Part shown: one piece after another, positions 33,720 through 50,835 of the stretch
Layout of the letters: each line of letters opens with the position of its first letter
How positions within the stretch are numbered: position 1 is the first letter of the stretch
NCBI RefSeq assembly: GCF_030818655.1
Contig: NZ_JAUTAN010000001.1
Span: 4,154,001-4,218,000 of the forward strand
Source: Nocardioides zeae
GTDB lineage: Bacteria; Actinomycetota; Actinomycetes; Propionibacteriales; Nocardioidaceae
DNA length: 64,000 bases
Reading direction: 5' to 3'
Notes under the pieces: generated by a model
Told to the model about the DNA's origin: nothing
What the model saw: the letters and a program-made list of their open reading frames with translations, nothing else
Databases searched by the model: none
Position numbers and translations under genes: made by a program

Positions 33720-33760
33720 GGGCCTCCCCGGACCGCCGCCTCGTGGATCGTCGCCTCGCG

Positions 33761-33879
33761 GACGTCATGCGAAGTGGTGGTGCGGGCCGTCGGGTTGCAT
33801 GACGTCCCGGAGTGCGGCGCGGGACCCCTCGGGGACGTCATGCGAACCGCCGGTCGGGGGCGCCGCACCGCATGACGTC
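33761..33879. repeat. Intergenic palindromic repeat element, copy 1 (two 46-bp units)
   Basis: Two units, each bounded by GACGTCATGC and its inverse GCATGACGTC: 33761-33806 and 33834-33879. Both are exactly 46 bp and are 27 bp apart. The spacer contains GGGACCCCTCG. The same double element, with the same unit length, is found at 50716-50835. It lies in the 263-bp gap 33720-33982. Confidence 0.85.
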
Positions 33880-33900
33880 CCGGGGCCGGCCGGCGCCCCG

Positions 33901-33982: not shown

Positions 33983-34807
33983 ATGAGGTTCACCGCCCAC
34001 GACGCGCACCGGCACATCGGTCGGCTCCCGGCGTACCCCTTCTACGGGGGGCCGCCGATCCAGCCCGACGTGACCGCCCGCGAGAGCGTCGCCGAGCTGG
34101 TGGCCGACCTCGACGCGGAGGGCACGGAGCGGGCGCTGGTGCTGCCCAACTACGGCGTGCCCGACCCCGACGTCTCGTTCCGCCTCAACCACCTCGCGCT
34201 CGACGCGGCGCACGCTGACGACCGGATCCGGTGCGGGCTGTGGGTGTCGCCGAAGGCCTCCGACGCCGAGCGCAACACCGCCGCCCTGGCCCTCGCCGCG
34301 GAGGACGGCGTGGCCGCCCTCAAGACCAGCTTCCTGCTCGGTGGCGCGGTCGACGACCCCGACTGCCGGGTCGAGCTCGACCGGATCTTCACGACGGCCG
34401 CGGAGCTCGACCTCGTCGTCCACGTGCACACCTCGCCCGGCGCGGCGTCCGACGTGGACCGCATCGGCGAGCTGGTCGAGCGCCACGGCGACGCCACCAA
34501 GATCCACCTCGTCCACCTGGGCGGCGGGATGAGCGGCCACATGAAGCTCATCGGCGGCCGCTTCTTCGACTGGATCGAGGCGGGCAAGCAGGTCTACACC
34601 GACACCTCCTGGGCCATCGGGTTCGCTCCCGTGTGGCTCTGCCAGGAGATCCAGCGGCGCGGCATCGGCGCCGACCGCGTCCTCTTCGCCACCGACACCC
34701 CCTGGGGCGACCACGCGGGCGAGCACGCCCGCCTGGCCGCCGCGACCGACGACCCCGAGCTCACCGCCGCGCTCTTCCGGGGCAACTTCGAGGCCCTCTA
34801 CGGCTGA
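33983..34807 (+). CDS. Amidohydrolase-family (PF04909-like) metal-dependent hydrolase
   Basis: A 274-residue TIM-barrel hydrolase. Metal-ligand positions are visible as DAHRHIG at the N-terminus (residues 6-12), VVHVHTSPG (about 149-157), HLVHLGG (175-181) and the Asp of LFATDTPWGDHAG (about 233-245). The WGDHAG end is characteristic of the ACMSD/uracil-type amidohydrolases. It leads the Nit1C operon and has no strong ribosome site. It may hydrolyse a C-N bond in the pathway's product or intermediate; the substrate is unknown. Confidence 0.85.
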   Translation: MRFTAHDAHRHIGRLPAYPFYGGPPIQPDVTARESVAELVADLDAEGTERALVLPNYGVPDPDVSFRLNHLALDAAHADDRIRCGLWVSPKASDAERNTAALALAAEDGVAALKTSFLLGGAVDDPDCRVELDRIFTTAAELDLVVHVHTSPGAASDVDRIGELVERHGDATKIHLVHLGGGMSGHMKLIGGRFFDWIEAGKQVYTDTSWAIGFAPVWLCQEIQRRGIGADRVLFATDTPWGDHAGEHARLAAATDDPELTAALFRGNFEALYG

Positions 34808-34849: not shown

Positions 34850-35374
34850 ATGCCCACGTTCGACGACGAGATCATGGCCAACATCGAGAAGTCCGTGGCC
34901 GAGATCCCGCACCCCTCGCAGCCCAAGGGCACCAACCTCTACGGCTCGACGAAGATCTTCCCGGACTACCAGGCGAGCGAGGGGCAGAGCTACCTCACCC
35001 TCGTGCACGGCATCCCGCACGAGAGCTCGGTCAGCTTCGTCGCCGTCCTCCAGGCGACGCGCGCACTGCGCAAGGGCTTCGAGTCGGCGCTCTACTTCTA
35101 CGGCCCGGGCGCCCTGGCCTGCGTCGACACCCGTGGCTTCCCGACGACGGGCGACGTCGCCTTCCCCGGCAACCAGAACATGAACGACTCCATCAAGACG
35201 TTCGTGAAGGAGGGCGGCACGGTCTTCTGCTGCCGCTTCGGGCTCGCGCTCCACGGCAGCCGCGAGGAGGACCTGATCGAGGGCGTCATCCCCGCGCACC
35301 CGCTCGACGTGCAGGACGCGGTCATCCACTACGCCAACAAGGGCGCCATCATCAACTCCGTCTACAACCTCTGA
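34850..35374 (+). CDS. MSMEG_0572/Sll0783-family nitrogen starvation response protein
   Basis: A 174-residue protein of the Sll0783 family, recognised from its even composition and conserved blocks: EIPHPSQPKGTNLYGSTKIF, HGIPHESSVSFVAVLQATRA, YFYGPGALACVDTRGFP and the Cys pair in VFCCRFGLALHGSREEDL. In cyanobacteria the gene is induced by nitrogen shortage and is needed for PHB accumulation. It is always linked with a nitrilase and a radical SAM gene. Its biochemical role is not known. A GGAGA ribosome site lies 6 nt before the ATG. Confidence 0.93.
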   Translation: MPTFDDEIMANIEKSVAEIPHPSQPKGTNLYGSTKIFPDYQASEGQSYLTLVHGIPHESSVSFVAVLQATRALRKGFESALYFYGPGALACVDTRGFPTTGDVAFPGNQNMNDSIKTFVKEGGTVFCCRFGLALHGSREEDLIEGVIPAHPLDVQDAVIHYANKGAIINSVYNL

Positions 35375-35384
35375 GGGCCGGACG

Positions 35385-36452
35385 ATGACCGCACCGGCCC
35401 CCTCCACCCGGGTGGACGTCGCCATCCAGGGCATTCGTCTCCTCGACGCCCCCGTCGCGCGCCGTGCCGGCGCGGGACCCAGCGACGACGGGCACGTGCT
35501 GCTGGGCGGGGTCGGCGCGGCCATCCCCCTCAATCCCCGCAGCCCCTACACCGTCCGGGGCGGCAAGCTGCTCCTCGACGGCGCCGACACCGGCCTCGGT
35601 CTCGAGGCGATCCGCCGCCCGCGGTTCTACGACCTCACGACCGCCGACGGCGTCCCCTACGAGAAGATCGCCCGCCTGCACTCCTCCCACGTGCTGGCCA
35701 CGACGGTGGTGCAGACCTGCGCCCGGTACGCCGAGGCCGAGCGCTGCCGCTTCTGTGCCATCGAGGAGTCGCTGCGGGCGGGCGCGACGGTGGCGGTGAA
35801 GACCCCGGCCCAGATCGCCGAGGTGGCGCTCGCCGCCCACGAGCTCGACGGGATCACGCAGGTCGTGATGACGACGGGCACCTCGACCGGCCGTGACCGC
35901 GGTGCGACCCACCTGGCCCGCTGCGTGCGGGCCGTGCGCGCCGTGCTCCCCGACCTCCCCATCCAGGTGCAGTGCGAGCCGCCCGGCGACCTCGCGACCA
36001 TCACCGAGCTGAAGGAGGCGGGCGCCAGCTCGATCGGCATCCACGTGGAGTCGCTCGACGACGAGGTGCGGCGCCGCTGGATGCCGGGCAAGGGCAGCGT
36101 GCCGATGGCGGAGTACCGCGCCGCCTGGGCCGAGGCCGTCCGCGTCTTCGGCTGGAACGAGGTCTCGACCTACGTCCTCGTCGGCCTCGGCGAGGACCCC
36201 GACGAGCTCGTCGCCGCGGCGGCCGAGCTCATCGCGATGGGCGTCTACCCCTTCGTCGTCCCCTTCCGCCCTCTCGCCGGCACCCTCGCGACCGACGTCG
36301 ACCACGTGCCGGCCCCCGACCCGCGGGTCGTCGCCGACGTGACCACCCGCGTCGCCGCCCTCCTGCGCGCCGCCGGGATGGCCGGCGCCGACCAGTCTGC
36401 CGGCTGCGCGGCCTGCGGCGCCTGCTCCGCGCTCTCGTGCGAGGGGGCCTGA
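35385..36452 (+). CDS. MSMEG_0568-family radical SAM protein
   Basis: A 355-residue radical SAM-like enzyme 10 bp after the Sll0783-type gene. The cluster motif in TCARYAEAERCRFCAI is spaced C-x8-C-x2-C (Cys112, 121, 124) instead of the usual C-x3-C-x2-C. The barrel is otherwise typical (TTGTSTGRDRG SAM region, GASSIGIHVESLD, YVLVGLGEDPDE). A second Cys group, GCAACGACSALSC at the C-terminus, could hold an auxiliary Fe-S cluster. It would make a 5'-deoxyadenosyl radical to modify a Nit1C intermediate; the reaction is unknown. Confidence 0.9.
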   Translation: MTAPAPSTRVDVAIQGIRLLDAPVARRAGAGPSDDGHVLLGGVGAAIPLNPRSPYTVRGGKLLLDGADTGLGLEAIRRPRFYDLTTADGVPYEKIARLHSSHVLATTVVQTCARYAEAERCRFCAIEESLRAGATVAVKTPAQIAEVALAAHELDGITQVVMTTGTSTGRDRGATHLARCVRAVRAVLPDLPIQVQCEPPGDLATITELKEAGASSIGIHVESLDDEVRRRWMPGKGSVPMAEYRAAWAEAVRVFGWNEVSTYVLVGLGEDPDELVAAAAELIAMGVYPFVVPFRPLAGTLATDVDHVPAPDPRVVADVTTRVAALLRAAGMAGADQSAGCAACGACSALSCEGA

Positions 36453-36453
36453 G

Positions 36454-37908
36454 GTGACGCTCGACCTGCACGTCCTCGCCGGGGTACGACGCGACACCGC
36501 CCCCGCGCGCACCCCGGCCCCCGGCTGGTCGGTGGCCGAGGCCGCGTCGGCGGCCGAGCACGCGGCGTACCGGCGCCTGCGGCGCGACGTGTTCGTCGCC
36601 GAGCAGGGCGTCTTCGCCCGCGACGACCTCGACGCGGTCGACGACGACCCGCGCACGGTCGTGCTGCTCGCGCGCGCGGCGGACGGCACGGTGCTGGGCG
36701 GTGTGCGCCTCCACCCGGCGCCGGAGGCCGACGGCTCCGTCCGGGTCCGCGACATCGGTTGGTGGCGGGGGAGCCGTCTCGTCGTCGCCCCCGGCGCGCG
36801 CAGCGTCGGCCACCTCGGGCCTGCCCTCGTGCGGGCCGCCTGTGCCCGGGCCGAGGCGGAGGGCGCGCTGCGGTTCGACGCCGTCGTGCAGGTCGCCAAC
36901 GAGCGGCTCTTCTCGCGGCTCGGCTGGCGCACCCGCGCCTCGGTGACCGCGCACGGCACGCCGCACGTCGTCATGGACTGGCCGATCGACCGCGTCCAGC
37001 GGCTCGCGGACGCCACGAAGGCGGCGCTCGGCCGGCTGCTGGACCCGTTGCGCGCGGGGGTCCCGGCGGGGTACGTCGGGGACGACGCCGCCCCCGTCCC
37101 GAGCGCCGACGGGCTCGTCGCCGCGTGCGACGCGATCCTGCCGTCGATGGTCGAGCGCGACCCCGAGTGGGCCGGCTGGTGCGCGGTGCTCGTCAACGTC
37201 AACGACCTCGCGGCCATGGGCGCCCACCCCGTCGGGCTGCTCGACGCGGTCGGGGCCCGCGACGCCTCCTTCGCGCGCCGCGTGCTCCGCGGTCTCGGCG
37301 ACGCCGCCGCCGCGTGGGGCGTGCCGGTGCTGGGTGGTCACACGCAGCTCGGCGTGCCCGCGGCGCTGTCGGTGACCGCGCTCGGCCGGACCGACGACGC
37401 CCTGCCGCGTCCCGTGCCCGGGGGTGGTGGCCGTGCCGGCGACGTCCTCCGCGTCACCGCCGACCTCGGCGGCGGCTGGCGACCCGGCTACACCGGCCAG
37501 CAGTGGGACTCCACCTCCCACCGTCGGCCCGACGACCTGCGGGCGCAGGCCCGCGTCGTACCGACCCTGGCGCCCACCGCCGCCAAGGACGTCTCGATGA
37601 GCGGCCTGGTCGGCACCACGGGGATGCTCGCCGAGGCGAGCGGCTGCCGCGCCGTGCTCGACGTGGCAGCGATCCCCACGCCCGCCGACGCGCGCGTCGG
37701 CGACTGGCTCACCTGCTTCCCGGGCTTCGCCGTCGTCACCGCCGAGCGCCCCACCGCGCTCCCCGGTCACGCGGCCGCCCTGCCCCACCACGTCGACACC
37801 GCCCGCTGCGGCGCGCTCACCCCGGGGACCGGGGTCGGGCTGCGCTGGCCGGACGGCGTCGTCACCGAAGCCGTCCGTCACACCGTCACAGGAATGGGAC
37901 CAGCATGA
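36454..37908 (+). CDS. MSMEG_0567/Sll0786-family GNAT-AIR synthase fusion
   Basis: A 484-residue two-domain protein from GTG 36454. Residues ~20-175 are a GNAT acyltransferase (YRRLRRDVFVAEQGVFA, VLGGVRLHP, NERLFSRLGWR). Residues ~200-480 are an AIR synthase/PurM-like ATP-dependent domain: VNVNDLAAMGAHPVGLLDAV, VLGGHTQL and the Gly-rich ADLGGGWRPG. PurM-like enzymes activate carbonyl or amide groups with ATP. This fusion is a Nit1C hallmark. Stop overlaps the nitrilase ATG. Substrate unknown. Confidence 0.92.
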   Translation: MTLDLHVLAGVRRDTAPARTPAPGWSVAEAASAAEHAAYRRLRRDVFVAEQGVFARDDLDAVDDDPRTVVLLARAADGTVLGGVRLHPAPEADGSVRVRDIGWWRGSRLVVAPGARSVGHLGPALVRAACARAEAEGALRFDAVVQVANERLFSRLGWRTRASVTAHGTPHVVMDWPIDRVQRLADATKAALGRLLDPLRAGVPAGYVGDDAAPVPSADGLVAACDAILPSMVERDPEWAGWCAVLVNVNDLAAMGAHPVGLLDAVGARDASFARRVLRGLGDAAAAWGVPVLGGHTQLGVPAALSVTALGRTDDALPRPVPGGGGRAGDVLRVTADLGGGWRPGYTGQQWDSTSHRRPDDLRAQARVVPTLAPTAAKDVSMSGLVGTTGMLAEASGCRAVLDVAAIPTPADARVGDWLTCFPGFAVVTAERPTALPGHAAALPHHVDTARCGALTPGTGVGLRWPDGVVTEAVRHTVTGMGPA

Positions 37909-38816
37909 GCACTCCCGCCACCACTCCGTCGGCTGGCGCTGTCGCCGCCGTCTGCGCCGGCTTCGGCCGCGACGTCGAGGAGAACCTCGCCCAGGTCGCC
38001 GCCCACGTCGAGGCCGCCCGCGCCCAGGGCGTGCGCCTCCTCGCCCTGCCCGAGGCCTGCCTGGGCGGCTACCTGTCCGTGCTCGGCCGCGGCCGCGACG
38101 GCAGCGGCGACGAGCTGCCGGCCGACCTGCCGCCCGTCATGGACCTCGACGGTCCCGAGCTGCGCCGCGTCGCCGCCATCGCCCGCGAGATGACGCTCGT
38201 CGTCGGTCTGTGCGAGTCGGACGGCGCCGAGCGCTACAACACGGCCGCCATCGTCACCGGCGACGGCGTCGTCGGGGCGCACCGCAAGGTGCACCAGCCG
38301 CTGGGGGAGAGCCTCTTCTACGCCGCGGGCGACACCTACGCCGCGTTCGACACGCCGGCCGGGCGCGTCGGCGCGCTGATCTGCTACGACAAGGCGTTCC
38401 CGGAGGCGGCCCGCGCGCTCGCGCTCGACGGGGCCGAGGTCGTCACCTGCATCTCGGCGTGGCCGGCCTCGCGCACCGCCGGCGCCGCGGACATCGCCCA
38501 GGACCGCTGGACGACGCGCTTCAACCTGTTCGACGCCGCACGGGCGCTGGAGAACCAGGTCGTGTGGGTCGCCTCCAACCAGCACGGCACCTTCGGGTCG
38601 CTGCGCTTCGTCGCCAACGCGAAGGTCGTGGGCCCGGGCGGCGACGTGCTTGCCAGCACCGGCACCGCCGCCGGTCTCGCGGTCGCCCACGTCGACGTGC
38701 CGGCCGCGCTCGAGACCGCCCGGCGGGCGATGTTCCACCTCGGCGACCGTCGTCCGGACACCTACCCGGCGACCCTCGCGCAGGGCGCCCCGACGCGGGA
38801 GCCGGTCCGTGCCTGA
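37905..38816 (+). CDS. Nit1C-type nitrilase (Nit6803 family)
   Basis: A 303-residue nitrilase that hydrolyses R-CN to acid and ammonia. The full catalytic set is present: Glu50 in LPEACLGG, Lys128 in HRKVHQPLGES and Cys160 in LICYDKAFPEAARAL. The length and the start at ATG 37905 (ATGA overlap) fit the bacterial Nit1 subfamily. Nit1C nitrilases have been tied to cyanide and nitrile assimilation in pseudomonads, which would fit a cluster under nitrogen control. The true substrate is presumably made by the cluster's own enzymes. Confidence 0.94.
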   Translation: MSTPATTPSAGAVAAVCAGFGRDVEENLAQVAAHVEAARAQGVRLLALPEACLGGYLSVLGRGRDGSGDELPADLPPVMDLDGPELRRVAAIAREMTLVVGLCESDGAERYNTAAIVTGDGVVGAHRKVHQPLGESLFYAAGDTYAAFDTPAGRVGALICYDKAFPEAARALALDGAEVVTCISAWPASRTAGAADIAQDRWTTRFNLFDAARALENQVVWVASNQHGTFGSLRFVANAKVVGPGGDVLASTGTAAGLAVAHVDVPAALETARRAMFHLGDRRPDTYPATLAQGAPTREPVRA

Positions 38817-39126
38817 GGCCACCTTCACCGTGCGCTGGCCCGACGGCGCCGTCACCGACTGCTGGTCGCCCTCCCTCGTCGTCCACGACCACCTCGACGA
38901 GGGGGCCACCTACACCGTCGAGGAGTTCACGCGCCGCTCCGCCGCGGCACTGGCGGAGGGGAGCGAGCGGGTCAGGGCGCGCTACGGCTTCGCGTGCACC
39001 GCCTCGGCCGCGTCGCTCGACCTGATCGAGGTCCGCGCGGCCACCCACGCGCCCGACGCCCCCGTCGAGGTGCTGCGCCTGTTCCCGCCCCTGCCTGCGT
39101 CCCTGCCCGAGGAGGCTCCCCGATGA
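38809..39126 (+). CDS. MSMEG_0570-family nitrogen starvation response protein
   Basis: A 105-residue protein from GTG 38809, overlapping the nitrilase by 8 bp and the next gene by ATGA. The start FTVRWPDGAVTDCWSPSLVV and the region YTVEEFTRRSAAALAEGSERV are typical of the family. It is a small soluble protein, possibly a subunit or cofactor carrier; the family has no assigned activity. Its linkage is restricted to Nit1C clusters. Confidence 0.88.
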   Translation: MPEATFTVRWPDGAVTDCWSPSLVVHDHLDEGATYTVEEFTRRSAAALAEGSERVRARYGFACTASAASLDLIEVRAATHAPDAPVEVLRLFPPLPASLPEEAPR

Positions 39127-40499
39127 GCACCGCACCCACCCTGCACCGCACCGGCGTCGTCGTGGTCGGCGGCGGCCAGGCCGGACTGTCGACCAGCTGG
39201 TACCTCACCCGCGACGGGGTCGACCACGTCGTGCTCGAGGCCGGGACGGCCACCCACGAGTGGGCCGACACCCGCTGGGACGCCTTCACCCTCGTCACGC
39301 CCAACTGGCACTGCCGGCTGCCGGGCTGGTCCTACGACGGACCCGATCCCGACGGCTTCATGAGCCGCGACGAGGTCGTCGCGTGGCTGGCGGGCTACCC
39401 CGCGAGCTTCGGCGCCCCGCTCCGCGAGCACACCCGCGTCACCGCGCTCACCGAGCGCGAGGGCGGTGGCTTCGTCGTCGACGCGGTCGGTCCCGCCGGG
39501 CCCGAGGTGTGGGAGGCCGACCAGGTCGTCGTGGCGACCGGTGGCTACCACGTGCCGATCGTGCCCGCCTGGGCCCCGGCGCTCTCGCCGTCCGTGACGC
39601 AGCTGCAGTCGGCGGACTACCGCAACCCCGACGCGCTCCCCGACGGCGAGGTGCTCGTCGTCGGCACCGGCCAGTCCGGCGCCCAGATCGCCGAGGACCT
39701 CCACCTCGCCGGGCGGCGGGTCCACCTCGCCGTCGGCGACGCGCCGCGGGTGGCGCGCCGCCACCGCGGCCGCGACGTGATGACGTGGTTGGCCGAGATG
39801 GGGCTCTACGACACGTCGGTGGCGCAGTACCCCGGCGGTCTCGCCGCGCGCGAGAAGACCAACCACTACGTGACGGGCCGCGACGGCGGGCGCGACATCG
39901 ACCTGCGGGCGTTCGCGGCCGAGGGGATGCGGCTCTACGGGCTGCTCGACGGCCTCGAGGCCGGCAGCGGCACGACGGTGACGTTCCGCCCCACCCTGCG
40001 GGCCGCGCTCGACGCCGCGGACGACACCTACCGGTCCATCTGCCGCGACGTCGACCGCTGGATCGAGGCGCGCAACGCCGAGGGTGCCGGGATCGACGCG
40101 GCGCCGGCCGCGCCGTACGAGCCCGTCTGGGAGCCCGAGACCGAGCCGGGGTCGCTGGACCTCGCCGCGGCGGGCGTCACGAGCGTGGTGTGGGCGATCG
40201 GCTACCGCCCGGACTACCGCTGGGTGCGCGTCGGGGTCTTCGACGGCACGGGGCGACCGACCCACACGCGCGGGGTGACCGCGGTGCCGGGGCTCTACTT
40301 CCTCGGTCTGCCCTGGCTGCACACGTGGGGCTCGGGCCGCTTCCTCGGGATCGCGGCCGACGCCGAGCACGTCGCCGGCTGCATCACGGGACGCCCGACG
40401 CGCACCACGCCCGCCGCGTCCGCGCTCGCCCGCGAGGTGTCCCCGGGGCCCTGGGGTCGCGACGTGCGGGTCGAGACCGCCGCAGCCGCCGCGCGCTAG
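39123..40499 (+). CDS. MSMEG_0569-family flavin-dependent oxidoreductase
   Basis: A 458-residue FMO-like flavoprotein. The FAD site VVVVGGGQAGLSTSWYL (about residues 12-28), the linker RWDAFTLVTPNWHCRLPGW, the NADPH site VLVVGTGQSGAQIAEDL (about 178-194) and the C-terminal LPWLHTWGSGRFLG are all present. Related enzymes add oxygen to N or C; in this cluster it may oxidise an amine toward an oxime, nitrile or N-oxide. That step is inference. Start ATG 39123 overlaps the previous stop. Confidence 0.9.
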   Translation: MSTAPTLHRTGVVVVGGGQAGLSTSWYLTRDGVDHVVLEAGTATHEWADTRWDAFTLVTPNWHCRLPGWSYDGPDPDGFMSRDEVVAWLAGYPASFGAPLREHTRVTALTEREGGGFVVDAVGPAGPEVWEADQVVVATGGYHVPIVPAWAPALSPSVTQLQSADYRNPDALPDGEVLVVGTGQSGAQIAEDLHLAGRRVHLAVGDAPRVARRHRGRDVMTWLAEMGLYDTSVAQYPGGLAAREKTNHYVTGRDGGRDIDLRAFAAEGMRLYGLLDGLEAGSGTTVTFRPTLRAALDAADDTYRSICRDVDRWIEARNAEGAGIDAAPAAPYEPVWEPETEPGSLDLAAAGVTSVVWAIGYRPDYRWVRVGVFDGTGRPTHTRGVTAVPGLYFLGLPWLHTWGSGRFLGIAADAEHVAGCITGRPTRTTPAASALAREVSPGPWGRDVRVETAAAAAR

Positions 40500-40510
40500 G
40501 GTCACCGGCC

Positions 40511-41380
40511 GTGCCCGCCCTCCGCATCGCCGCCGTCGCCGCCCACTTCGGGCGGGACGTCCAGCGTGCCGTCGCGAAGGTCGAGGGCATCATCGGCGAC
40601 GCCCGGGCGGCGGGCGCGGGCCTGCTCGTGCTGCCGGACGCGACGTTGGGCGGCTACCTCTCCGACCTCCGCCACCCCGACCCGGCCACGCTGCCGCCGG
40701 CGCTGGCCGAGGACTCGTGGGAGGTGCAGCGCATCGTCGCGCTGGCGCGCGAGATGGTGGTCTGCTTCGGCTACGCCGAGGAGGTCGTCGTCGACCGCCC
40801 CGGCGACCCCGCGGGGCCGGAGCTGCGGCTCTACAACACGGCGCTCGCCGTGACGGGCGACGGCGTGCTCGGCCGGCACCGCAAGGTGCACCAGCCGGCG
40901 GGGGAGTCGCTCGTCTACGCCGCGGGCACGGCCTTCGAGGCCTTCGACACGCCCGTCGGGCGGCTCGGCATGCTCATCGACTACGACAAGACGTTCCCCG
41001 AGGCCGCCCGCACCCTCGCCCTCGACGGGGCGCGGCTGCTGGCGTGCCTCTCGGCGTGGCCCGCGAGCGTCACCGACCGCGCCTCCCGCCTGCCCCAGGA
41101 CCGGCAGTCGCGCCTCTTCGACCTGTACGACGCGGCCCGCGCCGCCGAGAACCAGGTCGTCTGGGTGTCGTCGAACCAGACCGGCGTGATGGGCGGGCTG
41201 CGCTTCCTCGGCCAGGCCAAGGTGGTCGGACCGGGCGGCGACGTGCTGGCGCGCACCTCGTCCAAGGGCGGGCTCGCGCTGGCGGAGGTCGACGTCGACG
41301 TCGAGGTCGCGCGGGCCCGCCGGCTGCTCCACCACCTCGCCGAGCGGTCGCCCGCGGCGTACGGGACCCTGGGCGCGTGA
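40511..41380 (+). CDS. Nitrilase-fold protein lacking catalytic Glu and Cys
   Basis: A 289-residue protein of the carbon-nitrogen hydrolase fold, 30-45 percent-like in layout to the nitrilase two genes upstream (same HRKVHQPAGES and NQVVWVSSNQTG blocks). The catalytic Lys125 is kept, but Glu is Asp43 (VLPDATLGG) and the nucleophilic Cys is Asp157 (MLIDYDKTF; codon GAC at 40979-40981). The rest of the fold is well preserved, with no frameshift or stop, so it looks selected as a non-hydrolytic partner or an enzyme of altered chemistry. Start GTG 40511 is 11 bp after the flavoprotein stop; the stop overlaps the glycosyltransferase GTG. Confidence 0.9.
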   Translation: MPALRIAAVAAHFGRDVQRAVAKVEGIIGDARAAGAGLLVLPDATLGGYLSDLRHPDPATLPPALAEDSWEVQRIVALAREMVVCFGYAEEVVVDRPGDPAGPELRLYNTALAVTGDGVLGRHRKVHQPAGESLVYAAGTAFEAFDTPVGRLGMLIDYDKTFPEAARTLALDGARLLACLSAWPASVTDRASRLPQDRQSRLFDLYDAARAAENQVVWVSSNQTGVMGGLRFLGQAKVVGPGGDVLARTSSKGGLALAEVDVDVEVARARRLLHHLAERSPAAYGTLGA

Positions 41381-42471
41381 GGATCGCGCTCCTGACCTAC
41401 TCGACGAAGCCGCGCGGCGGCGTCGTCCACACGCTCGCGCTCGCCGAGGCGCTCGTCGGGCTGGGGGCGGAGGTCGACGTCTGGACGCTGGGGCGTGGCG
41501 GGGACACCGCCTTCTTCCGTCCCGTCGCGCCCGGGGTCGGGGTGCACGCCGTGCCCTTCGAGGCCCGGGACGACGAGAGCGTCGGCGAGCGGATCCTGCG
41601 CTCGATCGAGGTGCTGGGCGCCGCCCTCCGGGACGCCGGGCAGGCGTACGACGTCGTGCACGCCCAGGACTGCATCTCGGCCAACGCGGCGCTGGGCGCC
41701 GGCCTGCCGTGCCGACGCACCGTGCACCACCTCGACACCTTCACGACTCCCAAGCTCGTGGCCTGCCACGATCGTGCCGTCGCGCTGCCCACCCACCTGC
41801 TCTGCGTGTCCGCCTCGGTCGCCGCCGAGGTCGAGGAGGGGTGGGGACGCACGCCCGTGGTCGTGCCGAACGGGGTCGACGCGGCCCGGTTCGCGGGCGG
41901 AGCGGGGGACGCGGTCGGCCGGGCGACGTGGGCCGCCCACCTCGGGCGCTACGTGCTGGCCCTCGGGGGCATCGAGCCCCGCAAGGGCACGCTCGACCTG
42001 CTCGAGGCGTTCGCCGCGCTGCGGGCGTCGTCGCCCGACCACGCCGACCTCGAGCTGGTGGTCGGCGGGGGCGAGACGCTGTTCGACTACCGGGACTACC
42101 GGGCCGCCTTCGATGCCCGGGCGGCCGAGCTGGGCGTCACGCCGGTCGTGCTGGGCCCGGTCCCCGACCCCGACCTGCCGTCGCTCGTCGCCGAGGCCGC
42201 CGTGCTCGGCTTCCCGTCGACGAAGGAGGGCTTCGGGCTCGCCGCGATGGAGGCGCTGGCCGCGGGCGTCCCCGTCGTCTGCCGCGACCTGCCGGTGCTG
42301 CGCGAGGTGTTCGGGTCCGCCGTCCTGTTCGGGGCGTCCGTGCCGGAGCTCGTCGAGGCGCTCGACCGGGCGCTGCGGACGCCGGTGGACGCAGAGGTCG
42401 GGCGGGCGTTGGCCGCGTCGTACACGTGGGAGAGCGCCGCGCGGCAGCACCTGGCCTGGTACGGCGCCTGA
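41377..42471 (+). CDS. MSMEG_0565-family glycosyltransferase
   Basis: A 364-residue GT4-type (GT-B fold) glycosyltransferase, the last gene of the Nit1C cluster. ALLTYSTKPRGGVVHTLALA opens the acceptor domain; the donor domain shows VVPNGVDAARF, LGGIEPRKGTLDLLEAF and the E-x7-E element in PSTKEGFGLAAMEALAAG. Its presence suggests that the cluster makes a glycosylated product, or that a sugar-linked acceptor is used. Start GTG 41377 overlaps the stop of the preceding gene. Confidence 0.92.
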   Translation: MRIALLTYSTKPRGGVVHTLALAEALVGLGAEVDVWTLGRGGDTAFFRPVAPGVGVHAVPFEARDDESVGERILRSIEVLGAALRDAGQAYDVVHAQDCISANAALGAGLPCRRTVHHLDTFTTPKLVACHDRAVALPTHLLCVSASVAAEVEEGWGRTPVVVPNGVDAARFAGGAGDAVGRATWAAHLGRYVLALGGIEPRKGTLDLLEAFAALRASSPDHADLELVVGGGETLFDYRDYRAAFDARAAELGVTPVVLGPVPDPDLPSLVAEAAVLGFPSTKEGFGLAAMEALAAGVPVVCRDLPVLREVFGSAVLFGASVPELVEALDRALRTPVDAEVGRALAASYTWESAARQHLAWYGA

Positions 42472-50715: not shown

Positions 50716-50835
50716 GACGTCATGCGGTGCGGTGCCCCGGGCGACCGTTGCGCATGACGTCCTGGAGCCCGGGGGCCGGACCCCTCGCGGACGTCATGCG
50801 GCGCGGTGCCCCCGACCGCCGGGGTGCATGACGTC
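50716..50835. repeat. Intergenic palindromic repeat element, copy 2 (two 46-bp units)
   Basis: Two units bounded by GACGTCATGC and GCATGACGTC, at 50716-50761 and 50790-50835, each 46 bp and 28 bp apart, with GGACCCCTCG in the spacer as in copy 1 (33761-33879). It lies between the convergent histidine phosphatase and LacI genes, where it may also stop transcription. Confidence 0.85.

Follow-up and report, generated by a model that had tools for sequence, protein, structure and literature searches.

A nitrilase-fold protein with aspartate in place of the catalytic cysteine, a probable pseudoenzyme subfamily of actinobacterial MSMEG_0565-0572-type operons

The gene at positions 40511-41380 of the window, the 64,000-nucleotide stretch of Nocardioides zeae DNA that was analysed, encodes a protein of the nitrilase fold, here named AspNit, that carries aspartate at the position of the nucleophilic cysteine. 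Comparison with its relatives indicates that AspNit very probably represents a conserved pseudoenzyme subfamily of the operon type known from M. smegmatis as MSMEG_0565-0572. As to its function, our best guess, a little more likely than not, is that AspNit assists CysNit, the cysteine-bearing paralogue encoded in the same operon, as a non-hydrolytic partner that regulates it or holds a ligand. The genes of the operon and the key codons of AspNit are as follows.

33983-34807, plus strand: amidohydrolase (PF04909, by Pfam), often the first gene of the cluster
34850-35374, plus strand: MSMEG_0572/Sll0783 family protein (TIGR04044, 236 bits, above cut-off)
35385-36452, plus strand: MSMEG_0568 family radical SAM protein (TIGR04043, 509 bits, above cut-off)
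36454-37908, plus strand: fused GNAT (MSMEG_0567) and AIR-synthase-like protein (TIGR04045 and TIGR04050, both above cut-off)
37905-38816, plus strand: CysNit, paralogue with Glu50-Lys128-Glu135-Cys160 (translation, PF00795, alignment)
38809-39126, plus strand: MSMEG_0570 family small protein (TIGR04042, 104 bits, above cut-off for 38824-39126; putative start codon)
39123-40499, plus strand: MSMEG_0569 family flavin-dependent oxidoreductase (TIGR04046, 621 bits, above cut-off)
40511-41380, plus strand: AspNit, predicted nitrilase-fold pseudoenzyme of 289 residues (translation, PF00795, AlphaFold model with pLDDT 95.5)
40637-40639, plus strand: codon of Asp43, at the catalytic Glu position (Asp in 234 of 248 distinct AspNit)
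40883-40885, plus strand: codon of Lys125, the retained catalytic Lys (Lys in 248 of 248)
40904-40906, plus strand: codon of Glu132, the retained second Glu, of the C-loop (244 of the 248 have Glu, three Asp and one Val)
40979-40981, plus strand: codon of Asp157, at the nucleophilic Cys position (all 248 AspNit have Asp, all 167 others Cys)
41377-42471, plus strand: MSMEG_0565 family glycosyltransferase (TIGR04047, 431 bits, above cut-off)

The AspNit gene is an intact frame with a GTG start and a TGA stop; it begins 11 bases behind the stop of the flavoprotein gene, and its own stop overlaps the start of the glycosyltransferase gene by four bases. The protein matches the nitrilase superfamily profile PF00795 at 8.7e-34 and has the alpha-beta-beta-alpha fold of the superfamily. 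In place of the Glu-Lys-Cys catalytic triad stands Asp43-Lys125-Asp157. A previous sequence-only reading of this DNA had described just these two aspartates, the kept lysine and an intact, translationally linked gene, all of which is borne out at the codons and gene borders given above. The second glutamate of the C-loop, a conserved residue in the nitrilase superfamily, is present as Glu132. AspNit appears to be a member of the superfamily by descent, not by chemistry, and is predicted to be incapable of the usual thiol chemistry. It shares 55% identity with CysNit (154 of 279 columns), whose Glu50, Lys128, Glu135 and Cys160 align to AspNit positions 43, 125, 132 and 157, respectively.

Relatives were sampled mainly in Actinomycetota, by protein searches of which the best 120 matches were taken and by genome searches that followed kinship. 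Asp43, Lys125 and Asp157 are found in all of the best 120 of 4848 matches, among them P0003, which is identical to the window protein, ruling out a chance or sequencing slip as the source of the aspartates. The best 80 of 319 loci from one contig scan, together with the window, have Asp157 and Lys125 in 81 of 81 AspNit, and position 43 is occupied by Asp in 74, His in three, Tyr in two, and Gln and Gly in one each; of the 79 CysNit of the same loci, some of them partial rows (e.g. L070 and L030), all have Cys, 77 have Glu and two have a gap at the Glu position. A pooled alignment, sorted by residues 199 and 202 and not by the active site, holds 248 distinct AspNit and 167 other sequences, excluding stand-alone Glu/Cys loci, all of which have Cys. 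Asp157 and Lys125 are invariant among the 248, and Glu132 is nearly so; at position 43, 234 of them carry Asp, seven His, three Gly, two Tyr, one Gln and one Asn. The 167 others have Cys throughout at position 157 and Glu at position 43 in 165, with two gaps. A further 26 AspNit loci from the class search, which may partly share species with the pool of 248, all have Asp157, Lys125 and Glu132, and position 43 is Asp in 19 and Gly in seven.

Whether Asp/Asp marks a conserved subfamily was a question raised from the sequence before these alignments; the answer is yes for Asp157 and in part no for Asp43, which is common but, given the His, Gly, Tyr, Gln and Asn found there, rejected as a constant feature. 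Among the sequences read, the fixed mark of AspNit is the Cys-to-Asp change, whereas the Glu-to-Asp change is not fixed. This contrast says more than any other result: the general-base position may drift, whereas the aspartate at the nucleophile position is constant among the sequences examined. The pocket region around it is unusually constrained at Lys125, Glu132, Asp157, Tyr158, Asp159 and Lys160; among 88 AspNit all share Lys125, Asp157, Asp159 and Lys160, and position 132 is Glu in 85 and Asp in three. Residues of AspNit's own that are conserved to at least 97% include His12, Thr161, Arg190, Gln199, Leu202, Ala212, Thr224, Gln235, Lys252 and Glu278. Mean column entropy is lower in AspNit (0.88 bits) than in CysNit (1.01 bits), and in the stretch of helix 6 (residues 196-216) it is 0.25 against 0.59, the second lowest of nine segments compared. 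Two AspNit matches were flagged with one internal TGA (G466 C5:385895-386719 and G809 C98:1691-2518); tblastn of the corresponding loci, L128 and L134, gave no stop in the aligned part, and the TGA is probably located at the gene's end.

Three quick maximum-likelihood trees, with SH-aLRT as the sole measure of support, place AspNit in one clade beside the CysNit clade (SH-aLRT 94, 95 and 96), and those Glu/Cys relatives that belong to other actinobacterial classes group with CysNit or outside both clades. A single duplication and a single Cys-to-Asp change suffice to explain the data, and Asp43 seems to have been replaced several times within AspNit. Across 26 hand-picked close pairs (NG86 method, 26 of 26 kept), AspNit has a median dN/dS of 0.108 and CysNit one of 0.157. 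Judged by sequence, AspNit combines lost catalytic residues, an intact gene and purifying selection, as a pseudoenzyme does. The sequence-only reading had named Glu/Cys homologues within the group, together with signs of decay in this copy, as the outcome that would overturn it; instead, Asp157 is constant and dN/dS is low. A third Glu/Cys subfamily lies near CysNit and AspNit in other actinobacterial classes (loci L091, L093, L096 and L100; proteins P0172 and P0201), and no cluster genes were found around these four loci in the fetched stretches (L104, L106-L108).

All six other gene types of the Nit1C cluster are present in the window, namely the MSMEG_0572-like, radical SAM, GNAT, AIRS, MSMEG_0570-like and flavoprotein genes, the GNAT and AIRS parts being fused. 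We infer that TIGR04044 and TIGR04042 correspond to ORFs 1 and 6 of the Nit1C cluster of Podar 2005, which is described as a seven-gene cluster with one nitrilase gene (PMC1199592). The subfamily 1 nitrilase of Nit1C is missing here: no match to its family, TIGR04048, was found at 1e-30 in the genome of the window, and CysNit and AspNit stand there instead. Against TIGR04048, the family of the canonical Nit1C nitrilase (Nit6803, 3wuy), CysNit and AspNit score 51.4 and 20.2 bits, respectively, far under the cut-off of 502.6 bits, and CysNit is therefore rejected as the canonical Nit1C nitrilase. Among 396 actinobacterial genomes searched, 19 carry MSMEG_0572, taken as the marker of the cluster, and none of these 19 has a TIGR04048 match above the cut-off, with weaker matches in six. 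The sequence-only reading had called 37905-38816 the true nitrilase; as CysNit lies far under the cut-off, and the marker-bearing genomes lack a match above it, the protein seems better called a Glu-Lys-Cys hydrolase with a putative amide or nitrile substrate. The solved sequences nearest to CysNit are N-carbamoylputrescine amidohydrolase and PH0642. In two proteins, P0193 (738 residues) and P0231 (718 residues), both from the jgi source, a CysNit of the Glu/Cys type is naturally fused to a flavoprotein of the MSMEG_0569 family. The flavoprotein part scores 609 and 606 bits against TIGR04046, above the cut-off, and the fusions hint that CysNit and this flavoprotein may act together.

The window cluster is an actinobacterial relative of the Nit1C cluster without the canonical Nit1C nitrilase. 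It has the composition of the MSMEG_0565-0572 (gpr) type, with two carbon-nitrogen hydrolases, an MSMEG_0565 glycosyltransferase and Nit1C-like genes, and the gene order of locus L105 is that given for MSMEG_0565-0572 in M. smegmatis (PMC6039565). The M. smegmatis operon is described as GlnR-dependent (PMC6039565, PMC4222082), and under nitrogen starvation the transcripts of MSMEG_0566 and MSMEG_0571 were 8.9 and 48 times higher, respectively, in the wild type than in a glnR deletion (PMC4222082). Peroxide resistance is affected by the whole operon, with no single gene pinned down in that account (PMC6039565). In the Pseudomonas literature, the names NitC and NitD denote the nitrilase and the radical SAM protein, respectively (PMC11049912).

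Both paralogues are present in 78 of the 80 fetched loci; in the other two, L033 and L072, contig ends cut the CysNit side, and behind AspNit of L033 none of the other cluster genes was found within 8 kb. Within the family, 35 of 198 genomes match, that of the window included, each with exactly two matches. Within the class, 49 of 394 genomes match, of which 32 have two matches, 16 CysNit alone and one AspNit alone, where the type was read for all 17 single cases and for AspNit of 26 class loci, and assigned by identity for the rest. The phylum sample yielded nine matching genomes of 396, with both paralogues in five, including G374, which is distant in the tree. In G100 and G121, from another class, a Nit1C-like cluster that lacks AspNit contains a CysNit-like gene, and a stand-alone one is present as well; G143 and G381 have a stand-alone Glu/Cys gene only. 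A plasmid search returned four Rhodococcus records only. An obligate AspNit-CysNit pair is rejected by these counts, and since CysNit lacks AspNit in 16 of the 49 matching class genomes, AspNit is best regarded as accessory. In the tree, 14 of these 16 genomes form one clade and the other two stand singly. Three loci of the clade (L152, L153 and L165) have a different oxidoreductase of ~530-560 residues between CysNit and the glycosyltransferase, in the place of AspNit and/or the MSMEG_0569-type flavoprotein of other clusters; that of L152 and L153 is FAD-binding by Pfam, with no TIGR04046 among the families listed.

The sole AspNit-alone case in the class search is an orphan gene in genome G615 (L149:8342-9205), which retains Asp43, Lys125, Glu132 and Asp157. 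No MSMEG_0572 marker, no glycosyltransferase above its family cut-off and no CysNit orthologue were found in G615. The orphan departs from AspNit at nine of 100 near-invariant sites, compared to a median of 0 in 85 others; elsewhere, departures number at most four outside a deep branch, in which L090 has 10, P0232 nine and P0195 five. Four of the nine fall on the eight near-invariant sites that distinguish AspNit from CysNit (P=0.002, post hoc). In this one genome, the changes would fit a relaxation at AspNit-specific sites once CysNit and the operon were gone.

We propose that the lineage of the Glu-Lys-Cys hydrolase of this cluster underwent a duplication from which the ancestor of AspNit arose, and that one Cys-to-Asp change at the nucleophile of this ancestor abolished thiol chemistry, with the fold and the constrained pocket kept. 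AspNit would then bind the same kind of amide or nitrile ligand as CysNit and, as an accessory non-hydrolytic partner, tune CysNit or hold the ligand for it. In the simplest form, the two proteins would assemble into a heteromer across the A surface, formed by helices 5 and 6. A function tied to CysNit or its operon is probable and a ligand in the pocket somewhat favoured, whereas a stable AspNit-CysNit heteromer is a tentative suggestion. That AspNit might serve the active paralogue as a scaffold or regulator, as proposed earlier, is still plausible on this evidence, with CysNit often found without AspNit and AspNit once without CysNit.

The reading of AspNit as a ligand-holding partner of CysNit draws on the constraint of helix 6, on back-to-back loci and on rate correlations. 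A contribution of the A surface to the placement of the catalytic Cys has been suggested (PMC4981594), and all known functional superfamily members are described as built on a dimer, with one unpublished structure named as an exception (PMC4700190). In six Pseudonocardiaceae loci, the TGA of CysNit is directly followed by the ATG of AspNit, with zero bases between. Partial distance correlations, computed with the other cluster genes held constant on 52 loci, the non-redundant ones among 60 that have the full set of seven genes, are 0.28 between AspNit and CysNit, 0.30 between AspNit and GNAT-AIRS, 0.37 between CysNit and GNAT-AIRS, and highest, 0.72, between the radical SAM protein and the flavoprotein; the rate link of AspNit and CysNit is modest. 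A tandem CysNit-AspNit fold, predicted without a linker and with a shallow alignment for one half, gave a pTM of 0.51 and no fixed mutual placement, and no CysNit-AspNit fusion was found among the best 120 of 767 matches. An argument for an asymmetric interface, based on Trp199 and Leu212 in helix 6 of paired CysNit, was dropped, as the 16 partner-less CysNit mostly keep these residues (Trp199 in 12, Leu212 and also Arg202 in all 16); the CysNit-like genes of the AspNit-less clusters in G100 and G121 have Gln199 and Ala212.

Alternatively, as the sequence-only reading had also considered with acid-base chemistry on another substrate, AspNit might be an active enzyme, in which Asp157, Lys125 and Glu132 perform non-thiol chemistry on another metabolite of the pathway, with Asp157 as a predicted carboxylate nucleophile or acid-base catalyst. 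We consider this rather unlikely, and a more specific version, in which the invariant Asp157 is held by Lys125 and Glu132 for a chemistry impossible for Cys on an intermediate of the operon's pathway, unlikely as well. The constancy of Asp157 in 248 sequences in which position 43 varies would mean that the aspartate itself is selected, and the invariant Lys125, the nearly invariant Glu132 and AspNit's own residues such as His12, Thr161, Arg190, Thr224 and Lys252 point the same way, as does the persistence of AspNit with all four active-site residues in G615, where CysNit is gone. Asp-based chemistry would explain the invariant pocket well. However, 14 of 248 sequences have His, Gly, Tyr, Gln or Asn at position 43, and seven of 26 have Gly there, so that a classical base is not needed, the G615 orphan drifts at AspNit-specific sites, and we know of no natural superfamily member with an Asp nucleophile. 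If true, it would be the first carboxylate-centred member of the superfamily to our knowledge.

An empty-pocketed AspNit that merely completes or stabilises the CysNit oligomer is also unlikely. Dimerisation of the superfamily through helices 5 and 6 (PMC4981594, PMC4700190) and the low entropy of helix 6 in AspNit would be expected of such a structural partner, but an empty pocket should drift, and a pure scaffold explains poorly why four pocket residues are the same in 88 of 88 sequences and position 132 is nearly so. Moreover, 16 of the 49 genomes have CysNit and no AspNit, and the tandem fold reached a pTM of 0.51.

It is improbable that AspNit works with the GNAT-AIRS fusion or the glycosyltransferase and not with CysNit, for instance by carrying or chaperoning an intermediate. 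In 76 of 78 loci, the distance from the end of AspNit to the start of the glycosyltransferase gene is between -30 and +60 bases, and 41 loci show a 4-base overlap (starts extrapolated from alignments), and GNAT-AIRS is the top partial rate correlation of AspNit; yet short gaps and overlaps are common among the packed genes of the window, both candidate partners also occur in clusters without AspNit, and AspNit is a paralogue of CysNit in a superfamily that self-associates. A decaying duplicate on its way out, as the loss of two catalytic residues and the absence of AspNit from some CysNit-keeping lineages might suggest, is scarcely credible and was rejected in view of the median dN/dS of 0.108 in 26 pairs, 100 near-invariant sites across 85 sequences, intact frames and Asp157 in 248 of 248.

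Several known systems resemble AspNit in part. The CysNit paralogues, to which MSMEG_0571 of M. smegmatis belongs by gene order, share the operon, the Lys and the second Glu with AspNit, but differ in the Cys, kept by all 167, and in the Glu, kept by 165 with a gap in the other two. The PH0642 amidase of Pyrococcus horikoshii (6ypa, 1j31) and the N-carbamoylputrescine/D-carbamoylases (5h8i, 1uf4) show 23-27% identity. The natural enzymes of these groups have a Glu-Lys-Cys site, and 6ypa and 1uf4 are engineered Cys-to-Ala variants. In trypanosome prozymes and ADAT3, an inactive paralogue is kept beside an active one and physical contact between the two has been demonstrated; AspNit likewise accompanies an active-type paralogue, but those proteins have other folds, and the contact of AspNit with CysNit is a predicted one. 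MSMEG_0566 occupies the same place in the operon, adjoining the MSMEG_0565 glycosyltransferase in an order that matches L105, and judged by this gene order it should be the AspNit orthologue. It is described as a putative aliphatic amidase that possibly aids nitrogen assimilation (PMC6039565, PMC4222082), a role that would become doubtful if the loss of Cys is shared.

A catalytic cysteine is the hallmark of the nitrilase superfamily. The AspNit branch is a strongly conserved, cysteine-less lineage of apparently single origin in an operon of actinobacteria associated with nitrogen starvation, a clade that would have lost the cysteine once and has Asp in every sequence examined, be it a clean natural pseudoenzyme or a repurposed chemistry. 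A search of the open-licence literature by title and abstract found no report on point of a nitrilase pseudoenzyme. Re-annotation is suggested for orthologues annotated as hydrolases, e.g. the mycobacterial "aliphatic amidase" if it shares the change. In addition, as the cluster is a Nit1C variant without the canonical nitrilase, the cyanide and nitrile roles of the Pseudomonas clusters should not be transferred to it unchecked.

A dispersed REP-like inverted-repeat element occurs in the window at 33754-33883 and 50716-50835, with the core GACGTCATGCG facing its complement. Upstream of the cluster, it consists of two units 73 bases apart, and this 130-base stretch has 92 matches in the genome of the window, both strands counted.
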